Shown piece by piece: positions 8,848 through 19,727 of a stretch of DNA of 20,761 nt. The first letter of the stretch is position 1, and each line of letters opens with the position of its first letter. Under the pieces are notes generated by a model. The model was not told the DNA's origin. It made no database searches and saw only the letters and a program-made list of their open reading frames with translations. Source of the DNA: a virus; IMG/VR virus record IMGVR_UViG_3300042898_001751, positions 1-20,761 of that record; one strand, 5' to 3'. A program made the translations under genes and the position numbers.

Positions 8848-9132
8848 TTATTTTTCCATAGTCAAAGATTCCCAGGTATTAGCCCAATGGGATTTTGTTT
8901 TATGATTGTTAAACTCTCTAGATATATCTCCACCTTCTAGATATATTCCACCCCAAACGCCCCATTCTTTACTGGAAACGCCTACTGCAAAACAGGTTTT
9001 TTTAACTGGACAAGATGCACAAATAGAATCAACTATTGGTCTTACTGCTACATCATCCTCATACTTGTCAAAAAATAAATTATTGTCAAGTCCTAAGCAC
9101 GAAGACTCATCTTTCCACAAATGCTGCTTCAA
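8848..9132 (-). CDS. WhiB-family Fe-S transcriptional regulator
   Basis: A 94-residue WhiB-like protein. The four cluster cysteines are C12 and the C38-x2-C41-x5-C47 set, followed by the G58-V-W-G-G turn and a basic stretch (NHKTKSHW), all in the order expected for a [4Fe-4S] Wbl protein. This family is confined to actinobacteria and their phages and acts by binding the primary sigma factor to alter promoter choice. The start is TTG at 9132, supported by an AAGGA site 7 bases upstream; no ATG precedes C12. A phage copy may redirect host transcription or mimic a host Wbl protein. Family call very confident; role here is inference. Confidence 0.93.
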   Translation of the reverse strand: MKQHLWKDESSCLGLDNNLFFDKYEDDVAVRPIVDSICASCPVKKTCFAVGVSSKEWGVWGGIYLEGGDISREFNNHKTKSHWANTWESLTMEK

Positions 9133-13866: not shown

Positions 13867-13895
13867 ATTATATACTAATCGTTACTTTTTGGCAA
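13867..13895 (-). promoter_or_regulatory. promoter of the long minus-strand operon
   Basis: TTGCCA (13890-13895), a 17-base spacer and TATAAT (13867-13872) give 5/6 and 6/6 matches to the primary-sigma consensus. The -35 box lies within the last codons of hsp20. It lies upstream of the 2OG oxygenase with a leader of about 65 bases, and probably drives the genes down to the terminator at 6336. Confidence 0.75.
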
Positions 13896-14313
13896 CTTTG
13901 ATTACAATATCCTTTGGTTTCTTATCCTCTGGAACAATGCGATCAATATCAATATGTAACATACCATCTTTCATTTCAGCACCAGTTACTTCCATATATT
14001 CACCAAGAGCAAAAGTACGAGTAAACTTTCTACCAGCAATGCCTTTATGAACAATTTCTGCATCTGTTACTTCAACAATTTCTCCTTTAATGATTAATGT
14101 TCCATTATCTACTGACACATTAATATCATCTTTAGAGAACCCAGCAACGGCTAAAGACAACTTGTATGTGTCTTCGTCTAATTTAAGAATGTCGTATGGC
14201 GGATATGCCTGACGAGTTGCTAGATTATGTACTGTATTTAAACGGTCCAACTCACGGTTGAAACCAATAAAAAATGGATCCTTAAAAAGATCCAATGCAA
14301 ATGAACTTACCAT
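13882..14313 (-). CDS. Hsp20 / small heat-shock protein (IbpA-like)
   Basis: A 143-residue alpha-crystallin-domain chaperone. The N-terminal arm contains DPFFIGFNRELDRL. The domain runs from YPPYDILKLDEDTYKLSLAV (about 37-56) through AGFSKDDINVSVDNGTLIIKG, HKGIAGRKFTRTFAL and MKDGMLHIDI, ending in a tail with PKDIVIKV. The layout fits class A proteins such as IbpA, which hold unfolding proteins as oligomers. Hsp20 genes are found in many aquatic phages and may assist virion protein folding. The ATG follows AAGGAG by 7 bases. The leader may fold into a heat-sensitive hairpin over this site. Confidence 0.94.
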   Translation of the reverse strand: MVSSFALDLFKDPFFIGFNRELDRLNTVHNLATRQAYPPYDILKLDEDTYKLSLAVAGFSKDDINVSVDNGTLIIKGEIVEVTDAEIVHKGIAGRKFTRTFALGEYMEVTGAEMKDGMLHIDIDRIVPEDKKPKDIVIKVAKK

Positions 14314-14320
14314 TTTATAT

Positions 14321-14335
14321 CTCCTTTTCAGCGAG
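14321..14335 (-). promoter_or_regulatory. ROSE-like hairpin masking the hsp20 Shine-Dalgarno site (putative RNA thermometer)
   Basis: The mRNA reads CUCGCU-GAAA-AGGAG just before the hsp20 start. CUC and CU pair with AGGAG with one bulged G (14332), closed by a GAAA tetraloop. ROSE thermometers of small heat-shock genes have a U(U/C)GCU motif pairing with the Shine-Dalgarno AGGA with a bulged or unusual G; UCGCU fits that motif. Melting would free the ribosome site. Inference from sequence and gene identity only. Confidence 0.5.
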
Positions 14336-14342
14336 TTTCATT

Positions 14343-14369
14343 TTTGTACCCCCTTTTGGCAGGTACAAA
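14343..14369 (-). repeat. perfect 8-base inverted repeat at the hsp20 transcription start
   Basis: TTTGTACC, 11 bases, GGTACAAA. It starts 3 bases past the -10 box, so it overlaps the likely start site near 14366. As DNA it may be an operator. As RNA, GUACC pairs with GGUAC, and inner CC-AAAA-GG extends the stem, giving a 5' hairpin ahead of the SD hairpin. There is no U-run, so a terminator for the carbamoyltransferase gene is unlikely. Confidence 0.55.
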
Positions 14370-14372
14370 TAT

Positions 14373-14381
14373 ATTATATCA
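14373..14381 (-). promoter_or_regulatory. extended -10 promoter of hsp20
   Basis: TGATATAAT on the minus strand is a perfect extended -10. The -35 region (TTTCCT, 17 bases up) is weak. The start site would be near 14366, giving a leader of about 53 bases with two possible hairpins. Confidence 0.65.
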
Positions 14382-14383
14382 GA

Positions 14384-15802
14384 TTAGGACAGTATAGGAA
14401 AATTATATTGTTTTTGCCATTTTTCTATGTCTAACTTATCATTTAATAATGGCTGTCCTTTAATATTTAAACTAGTATTAAGTAATACTGGAACTCCAGT
14501 AAGTGCGTGCCAATTAGATAAAACGGCATAAAGTCCAGGGTGCTGATTTTTATTTATTGTTTGTACTCTAGACGTACCATCTTTATGAACCACCGATGGT
14601 ATTTTTTCTGGTTGTAAGCATTTAACTGCATATTGCATATAAGGAGAGTCAAAATCCATATCAAACCATTTATCTGCATATTCTTCTAATACTACTGGGG
14701 CAAAAGGCCTAAACATTTCTCTTTGTTTAATAAGATTAACTTTGTCTTTAATATCTGGGTCTCTAGGATCTGCCAATATGCTTCTGTTTCCTAATGCTCT
14801 TGGTCCGTACTCTGCTCTACCAGATGCAACTGCAACTACCTTATCTCTGATTAGATTAGTTATTATTTCATTTATTGGATATTCCCCACCTAAATTATGT
14901 CCAAGATATGGAGTTTTCCATTCAATATGTTTTCCATATAGTGCTGCTGCTGCACCTAAAGATGATCCAGCATCTCCTGGGTTTGGCATAATCCAAACAT
15001 CATCAAATATATCCCATAGCATAGTATTAGCAGAGCAGTTTAGTGCACAACCACCCATAAAAACTAATTCAGTTTTTCCAGTAATGGTTCTTGCCATTTT
15101 CATGAATTCCATAAGTCTAAGTTCATATACTTTTTGAACTGCTGCAGCAATATCAAACTTATCCTGTTCTGTTACCCAGCCCCAGTCAGTAATGCCTTTG
15201 TGAAAATTATATTTTTGTTTGTTGTGCTCTGGAAAATAATCTCTTACTTTATTGTAATATTTGTTTGCATCCCCATAGGCTGCCATACCCATAAAAATAT
15301 ATTCTTCTTCGTTTGGTTTTAAGCCAACTAATTGTGTAAATGCAGAATAAAATAATCCAAAACTAACAGGATAGTTTTGTTTATATTTTAATTTAATTTT
15401 ATTTCCTTCTCCAACCCAAATAGTAGAAGTATTGTATTCACCAATTGAATCAAGAACAACAATAACCGCATCATTAAAACTACTAGTATAGTAGCCTGCT
15501 GCTGCATGTGAATAATGATGTTTAAAATATTTTACTGGAAGGCTTATTGGAATTTTTGGTTTCCAGTCTCCAGCCCCGCCTTTTAAAATAAGCCTAGATC
15601 TTTTTAGTTGTGGTTTTTCATAATACGCAATATGTGTTGGTATTGCATAACTTAATGCATCTATAATAATTTTATCATTGTTATACCAGTCGTTTTTTTG
15701 CTTACTATATCTTTCGGCATGTCCAGCAAATAATATTTGGCCATCTTTAATTAAAGATACTGATGCATCATGTGATGTTTCATTAATTCCTAATATAATC
15801 AT
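14384..15802 (-). CDS. NodU/TobZ-family carbamoyltransferase
   Basis: A 472-residue carbamoyltransferase that makes carbamoyl-adenylate from carbamoyl phosphate and ATP and moves it to a sugar or other hydroxyl. Visible: MIILGINETSHDAS at the N-terminus, the HHYSHA metal site (95-100), GGCALN (250-255), a SGRAEYGPRALGNRSILADPR block (327-347) for ATP binding and VLLNTSLN (439-446). Family members are commonly about 550-600 residues; here the end after NTSLNIKGQP is abbreviated and unlike the usual C-terminus. The start is fixed by the MIILGI opening although no ribosome site is present. With the glycosyltransferases 9 kb away, it may carbamoylate the phage-encoded glycan; DNA-base modification is another option. 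Confidence 0.93.
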   Translation of the reverse strand: MIILGINETSHDASVSLIKDGQILFAGHAERYSKQKNDWYNNDKIIIDALSYAIPTHIAYYEKPQLKRSRLILKGGAGDWKPKIPISLPVKYFKHHYSHAAAGYYTSSFNDAVIVVLDSIGEYNTSTIWVGEGNKIKLKYKQNYPVSFGLFYSAFTQLVGLKPNEEEYIFMGMAAYGDANKYYNKVRDYFPEHNKQKYNFHKGITDWGWVTEQDKFDIAAAVQKVYELRLMEFMKMARTITGKTELVFMGGCALNCSANTMLWDIFDDVWIMPNPGDAGSSLGAAAALYGKHIEWKTPYLGHNLGGEYPINEIITNLIRDKVVAVASGRAEYGPRALGNRSILADPRDPDIKDKVNLIKQREMFRPFAPVVLEEYADKWFDMDFDSPYMQYAVKCLQPEKIPSVVHKDGTSRVQTINKNQHPGLYAVLSNWHALTGVPVLLNTSLNIKGQPLLNDKLDIEKWQKQYNFPILS

Positions 15803-19193: not shown

Positions 19194-19222
19194 AGTATAC
19201 TGCTAAATGCTTACCACGTCAA
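19194..19222 (-). promoter_or_regulatory. strong promoter with leaderless start
   Basis: TTGACG (19217-19222), 17-base spacer, TATACT (19194-19199), then 6 bases (TAATAC) and the ATG at 19187. The -35 lies within the 3' end of the proteasome-like gene. The close consensus match and exact spacing make this the clearest leaderless-type promoter of the window. It would drive the small gene, the metalloprotease and possibly tRNA-Glu. Confidence 0.8.
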
Positions 19223-19727
19223 TTGGACCCATACATGATGGACTAAATTTAATAGCAGAGTTAACTGCTCCTACAACTCTTTTACGTGGATCTTTAGATT
19301 TTTCGGTAGCATTTAAATATCCATAAGCATATTCGGCACCAGACCCCATTGCTAAATAATCTAAATTATATTTAGATAAAGACATATCAACTGCATTATG
19401 TTCATATATTTGTCCTTTAACACAAATTATTAAACCAAGATCAGCCTCTTTGCCAGTATCAACCCACCAGTCATTATAAAAATTTTTAAGTTGTTTAATA
19501 AACTTAGTTTGCATGAACTTATCTAGATCTTTAATATCTGGGACATATGGATTAAAATTGTATCTGATTCGTTCTCCATCTAAGGCACCAGCATATCCAA
19601 GTAAATATGGACCAAGTTTCCAAACCTTTGGTGCTGTTAAAGCAAGGATTGTATTATCATCAGATGCACCACGATCTCCAGCCATGTACACTTTATTTTC
19701 ATGACGGACTACAGCCAAAACGGTCAT
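19203..19727 (-). CDS. proteasome-beta/HslV-like Ntn-hydrolase
   Basis: A 174-residue Ntn-hydrolase similar to proteasome beta subunits and HslV. It begins MT-VLAVVRHENKVYMAGDRGAS: after Met removal the N-terminus is Thr1, with Asp17 (GDRG) and Lys33 (APKVWKL) at the positions of the 20S proteasome catalytic set. LAMGSGAEYAYGYL (about 126-139) is the conserved GSG loop and helix. There is no propeptide, as in HslV. No alpha-ring subunit or unfoldase is nearby, so it may form its own ring or dock on host partners. It has an SD (GGGGATC) and its own promoter (19756-19784). Alternatives are rare; function as an active peptidase is inference. Confidence 0.85.
   Translation of the reverse strand: MTVLAVVRHENKVYMAGDRGASDDNTILALTAPKVWKLGPYLLGYAGALDGERIRYNFNPYVPDIKDLDKFMQTKFIKQLKNFYNDWWVDTGKEADLGLIICVKGQIYEHNAVDMSLSKYNLDYLAMGSGAEYAYGYLNATEKSKDPRKRVVGAVNSAIKFSPSCMGPIDVVSI

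Follow-up and report, generated by a model that had tools for sequence, protein, structure and literature searches.

Does a phage that carries a small heat-shock gene also carry the switch that decides when the chaperone is made? The question arises in the IMG/VR virus record IMGVR_UViG_3300042898_001751, of which positions 1 to 20,761 form the window, i.e. the whole 20.8-kb stretch of DNA analyzed here. On its minus strand the window encodes a 143-aa small heat-shock protein (hsp20, 13882..14313, start codon 14313-14311; PHROG phrog_432 Hsp20, E 1.3e-37), and an earlier sequence-only reading had proposed a ROSE-like RNA thermometer directly in front of this gene. Our analysis indicates that the leader very probably acts as a short ROSE-like RNA thermometer with two hairpins; its response to temperature is inferred from its anatomy, its gene company and the homologous layout of known elements.

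Anatomy and covariation of the leader

The promoter is represented by an extended -10 element, TGATATAAT (TGnTATAAT, minus strand), which had been predicted at 14373 and was read directly at 14373..14381; no clear -35 element accompanies it. From the spacing of the -10 element a 5' leader of about 53 nt is predicted (14314..14366, minus strand). Hairpin I (UUUGUACCU[G]CC-AAAA-GGGGGUACAAA, 14343..14369, minus strand), supported by folding and covariation, lies at the predicted mRNA 5' end. The sequence-only reading had seen this hairpin as GUACC...GGUAC with an inner CC-AAAA-GG, which is present but understated, since the hairpin is longer and has a bulged G of its own. This G (14360, minus strand) belongs to a UGCC/GGG motif and is invariant in an alignment of window-type leaders (A1). 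Hairpin II, the putative temperature sensor (CUC[G]CU-GAAA-AGGAG, 14321..14335, minus strand; sequence and fold), was found exactly as it had been described, with five pairs, one bulged G and a GNRA-type loop that together hide the Shine-Dalgarno (SD) site. The SD sequence AGGAG (14321..14325, minus strand, read directly) lies wholly within hairpin II and is paired around the bulged G with UCGCU (14330..14334, minus strand), which on the anti-SD strand corresponds to the ROSE motif U(U/C)GCU as defined for Pseudomonas (PMC3669281). Of 200 dinucleotide shuffles of an 81-nt leader stretch, 198 fold less well than the stretch itself (z -2.6).

Conservation was first judged in the 80 closest IMG/VR relatives of the window Hsp20, collected by protein and with a readable leader in 78 cases. 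All 78 have the ROSE motif beside the start codon, and upstream of hairpin I a TATAAT is found in 77 and the full TGnTATAAT in 74 of them. Hairpin II occurs mainly as CUCGCU-GAAA-AGGAG (57 leaders); in a second type, UUAUUC-G-CUU-GAAA-GGG-GAAUAA (19 leaders), the stem can be extended. The spacer and the distance to the ATG vary among the window-type relatives. Stretches that fit the sequence pattern lie directly 5' of hsp20 in 210 of 218 cases. A search of phage records at the DNA level with the window leader and gene gave no match.

A comparison of related leaders had been named as a check, and it came out in favor of the element: homologous leaders retain the pairing and contain compensatory changes. 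The stem of hairpin I appears as GUACC/GGUAC, GUAUC/GAUAC, GUGCACC/GGUGCAC or GUACUU/AAGUAC, and one of its positions shows each of the four Watson-Crick pairs, with 117 of 117 leaders paired. Alignment A1 comprises 40 leaders, some of them picked by sequence pattern, so that invariance of the motif was judged solely on the protein-anchored sets. It contains 31 compensatory double-change cells against 5.9 in shuffles, and none of 500 shuffles scored as high. The larger alignment A3 (95 leaders) contains 218 double-change cells, a number reached in none of 500 shuffles; its pairing of 98%, compared with 43-65% when the partner strand is slid, comes from an alignment that was fitted to the structure. 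The fourth outer pair of hairpin I (o4), on which the parse was not conditioned, is paired in 95% of leaders vs 43% with shuffled partners. In hairpin II, 99% of the cells in A1 are paired and the changes are mostly wobble changes, while A3 adds a few double changes in its lower pairs. Covariation thus gives hairpin I far stronger backing than hairpin II. The bulged-G motif of hairpin I (YGCY/RGG) is found in 229 of the 239 distinct leaders taken from all groups, in a parse that required the G. As a side observation, both hairpins in all groups share this same kind of motif, YGCY opposite RGG, so that the sensor motif looks duplicated.

Occurrence in other phages and in bacteria

A relative of Hsp20 is encoded by 508 of the phage records that were searched. 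Across the protein-anchored phage hsp20 genes of the freshwater, cyanophage, pelagiphage and methylophage types, the ROSE motif stands by the start codon in 251 of 258. The three groups other than that of the window account for 173 of 180 (78/78 cyanophage-type, 16/23 HTVC008M-type and 79/79 Melnitz-type). The control was formed by other ORF starts with an SD, which have the motif in 21 of 779 cases (2.7%); at least 3 of these 21 resemble divergent hsp20 genes. In seven HTVC008M-type genes UUGCU is replaced by CUGUCU. In these leaders (L359-L366) CUGUCU lies opposite AGGAGG and hairpin I is mostly retained, which may represent a natural loss of the motif or a variant of it. The same layout is present 5' of hsp20 in the cultured phages Melnitz-3, HTVC115P, HTVC008M, C48C1, S-CRM01, Mosig, Atu_ph07, Phosso, S-SKS1, P-SSM4 and HTVC103P; before the hsp20 genes of two Vibrio phages the element is absent. 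A covariance model built from freshwater leaders alone (R1) matches cultured phages (S-SKS1, 9.7e-7; Melnitz, 6.7e-5) and recovers most of the hsp20 loci of the other groups in IMG/VR. It missed the Pseudomonas element and is too narrow for bacteria.

Promoters differ between these groups. Just 5' of hairpin I the T4-like groups have a TAAATA/TATAAA box in 43/46, 9/11 and 38/58 leaders (background 4.6%), in place of which the window group has the extended -10 element. By resemblance only, the box may be a T4-late-like promoter. Since the leader stays constant while the promoters differ, we argue for a post-transcriptional role.

In Methylophilales-type phage contigs (L245, 5465-5689; L210; relatives L150, L216 and L236) a tiny PqqA-like gene (MWTKPEAVEMRYGFEITMYVMNR), a ROSE-like leader, a gene for a phasin-like protein of 74 aa and hsp20 follow one another. 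The phasin-like gene was considered as a different target of the leader and dropped, because in the long contigs L210 and L245 hsp20 comes immediately next. In a related phage (L153), UCGCU...AAGGAG adjoins the start of another gene (ORF MKTVGDRLGNFAVTG), either as a second ROSE-like target or by chance.

A second covariance model (R2), built from 95 phage leaders and containing phage sequence only, was run on bacterial genomes. At class level it found matches in 9/185 and 11/142 genomes (E <= 0.1), and in three narrower groups in 134/197, 28/114 and 29/40 genomes (E <= 0.01). By inference these three look like a SAR11-type, an OM43-type and a third, aquatic alphaproteobacterial group. None of 151 genomes from the phylum to which a Dehalococcoidia genome belongs gave a match. 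The gene directly 3' of the 69 best loci is hsp20 in 61, dnaK in 6 and a 500-aa ORF in one, the last locus running off its contig end; the training set had been anchored on hsp20, and the hsp20 matches therefore partly reflect common ancestry of leader and gene, whereas matches before dnaK and rpoH do not. A model trained on phages only thus recovers mostly cellular heat-shock genes. On the Pseudomonas element R2 gave a weak match (E 0.013). A simple exact pattern proved too narrow for such a search: its 14 matches in 85k bacterial and archaeal species were all rejected as chance by their context. In its main text, a survey of SAR11 intergenic regions names "a possible RNA thermometer" but does not elaborate (PMC6429828), so the host side may be partly known already.

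Some single bacterial loci deserve mention. ROSE-like leaders lie directly 5' of dnaK in alphaproteobacterial genomes (L469, L512, L513, L514, L522, L524 and L525, at ~1500-1560); according to a review, ROSE is always linked to small heat-shock genes. A weak match (28.2 bits; L468, 1501-1560) precedes rpoH (NCBIfam sigma-32) in a 1.2-Mb alphaproteobacterial genome and shows hairpin I together with UCGCU and GAAAGGG. The 500-aa ORF (L508, minus strand, gene 2-1501) follows a leader match of 43.2 bits and lies beside a uvrB-like gene.

Proposed temperature sensing and competing readings

An Rfam scan of the window at gathering thresholds returned nothing but a tRNA. Below these thresholds, ROSE_3 (RF02523) was the best real match to the window leader and aligned over its full length (model positions 1-69), including ACUCGCU/AGGAG and UGCC/GGG, at 17.8 bits against a gathering cut-off of 43. 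In Melnitz-3 (34.1 bits, E 1.6e-6), C48C1 (26.8) and also IMG/VR relatives, the best ROSE_3 match falls exactly on the hsp20 leader. The cut-off was passed solely by the record of Pseudomonas phage Y7 (69.2), an unverified record that possibly contains host DNA. Because the cut-off is missed, we call the window leader ROSE-like and not a member of RF02523. The ROSE-like reading is supported by the anatomy, the small heat-shock gene, the conservation, the covariation and the fact that a model trained on phages finds heat-shock genes in bacteria.

At normal temperature hairpin II would block binding of the 30S subunit; upon warming this weak hairpin of five pairs and a bulge would open and Hsp20 would be made, while hairpin I would stay closed as a folding scaffold or a protector of the 5' end. 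Chaperone output of the phage would then follow the temperature of the cell independently of the transcriptional heat-shock regulators of the host, since phage groups with different promoters retain this leader. The short ROSE elements of Pseudomonas, which are proven thermometers, are 61-62 nt long and fold into two hairpins; they share the anti-SD motif, their hairpin I is stable, and their hairpin II melts and is sufficient for regulation (PMC3669281). In another ROSE-like element, deletion of the bulged G lowers heat induction (PMC11342760). Nearest-neighbor folding (ViennaRNA) from 10 to 42 C predicts that the unpaired fraction of the window SD rises from 0.01 to 0.09 when 9 nt of the gene are included, values that shift with the length of coding sequence added. 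For the P. aeruginosa-type element the calculated rise is just as small (0.01 to 0.13), so that the method speaks neither for nor against melting. At 20 C the accessibility of the SD is 0.12-0.30 vs 0.36-0.46 with shuffled upstream sequence.

The weak predicted opening between 10 and 42 C would also suit a constitutive translational attenuator or mRNA stabilizer, which would hold translation at a fixed low level and protect the 5' end without sensing temperature, and hairpin I does sit at the predicted 5' end as stabilizing stems do. We nevertheless regard this as unlikely, given the retention of the exact ROSE motif with its bulged G and a phage-trained model that finds mainly bacterial heat-shock chaperone genes; a generic attenuator would not follow hsp20, dnaK and rpoH. 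That phage hsp20 is controlled through a binding site for a protein (e.g. the T4-type translational repressor RegA) or a small RNA, with the bulged Gs as recognition features, is very unlikely in our view. The bulged-G motif YGCY/RG(G) is indeed kept in both hairpins, and regA lies near hsp20 in S-CRM01 and S-SKS1. The element, however, also occurs in bacteria, no RegA is seen in the window's phage type within the part of the genome covered, and hairpin I covaries freely beyond the bulge, which argues for a structural role and against recognition of its sequence.

Hairpin II is also overlapped by a short upstream frame, MKLAEKEI-stop (14315..14341, minus strand, read directly), which opens with ATG-AAA-CTC-GCT and ends a single base ahead of the hsp20 start codon, as a leader peptide or a translationally coupled frame might. 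Its ATG, however, is present in just 23 of 121 distinct leaders, the frame ends vary, and other groups that keep both hairpins do not have the frame. On the rarity of the ATG and the varying frames we rejected the leader peptide, whose probability is close to nil; the frame is probably incidental. In some relatives this short frame continues in phase into hsp20.

Known thermometers and significance

The thermometer reading of the window leader finds its closest counterpart in the short ROSE-like thermometer of Pseudomonas ibpA (PMC3669281; nearest Rfam family ROSE_3, RF02523). Both consist of two hairpins in about 60 nt before a small heat-shock gene, with U(U/C)GCU-SD pairing around a bulged G in hairpin II and a stable hairpin I with UGCC/GGG. 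The window leader differs in being phage-borne, in its shorter hairpin II (five pairs and a tetraloop), in its leader of about 53 nt and in scoring below the RF02523 cut-off; moreover, the phage leaders stand under phage promoters and Pseudomonas ibpA under sigma-32. Classical ROSE elements (rhizobial hspA, E. coli ibpA) likewise combine U(U/C)GCU as anti-SD and its bulged G with a small heat-shock gene, but have three to four hairpins (PMC3669281). The ROSE-like element of Anabaena variabilis and the hsp17 thermometer of Synechocystis (PMC4166951) are also small heat-shock leaders, one of them ROSE-like, and cyanobacteria are the hosts of cyanophages; these elements are cellular, that of hsp17 is a single hairpin, and the comparison made here is one of published descriptions. 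Temperature-dependent translation from phage mRNA leaders is known for lambda cIII, the fourU of SPbeta blyA (PMC10586365) and the fourU of a gut phage sigma-70 (PMC11182007). In contrast to the window leader, these are fourU elements or alternative conformers before other genes, and cIII is lowered by heat. Their authors suspect that more phage thermometers exist (PMC10586365, PMC11182007). A paper dealing with the small heat-shock proteins of cyanophages does not take up leaders (PMC3827213). In the open-licence PMC literature we found neither a phage ROSE element nor a phage hsp20 thermometer, an absence that is no proof.

The class of mechanism is already known; a viral family of such breadth had not been described in the literature searched. 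We consider it likely that some of the most abundant phages of aquatic habitats, among them cyanophages, pelagiphages, methylophages and probable actinophages, carry a large family of ROSE-like thermometers. Chaperone genes of bacteria with small genomes would share this family, which would be kept as promoters change and would serve chaperone production on demand in warmed or stressed cells; the probable actinophages would have brought a proteobacterial-type switch into another phylum. RNA thermometers in phages, so far a handful of separate cases, would thereby extend to a widespread viral family. Hsp20 is a common yet unexplained gene of aquatic phages, and a conserved thermometer would tell when it is used; the output of infection should then vary with temperature over short periods. 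In bacteria, model R2 also points to ROSE-like leaders on dnaK and rpoH.

WhiB-type regulators point to an actinobacterial host. One of them (Pfam) is encoded in the window at 8848-9132, which makes such a host probable here. The window further encodes a proteasome-subunit-like protein just under the Pfam cut-off (19203-19727) and a NolO-like carbamoyltransferase (14384-15802).
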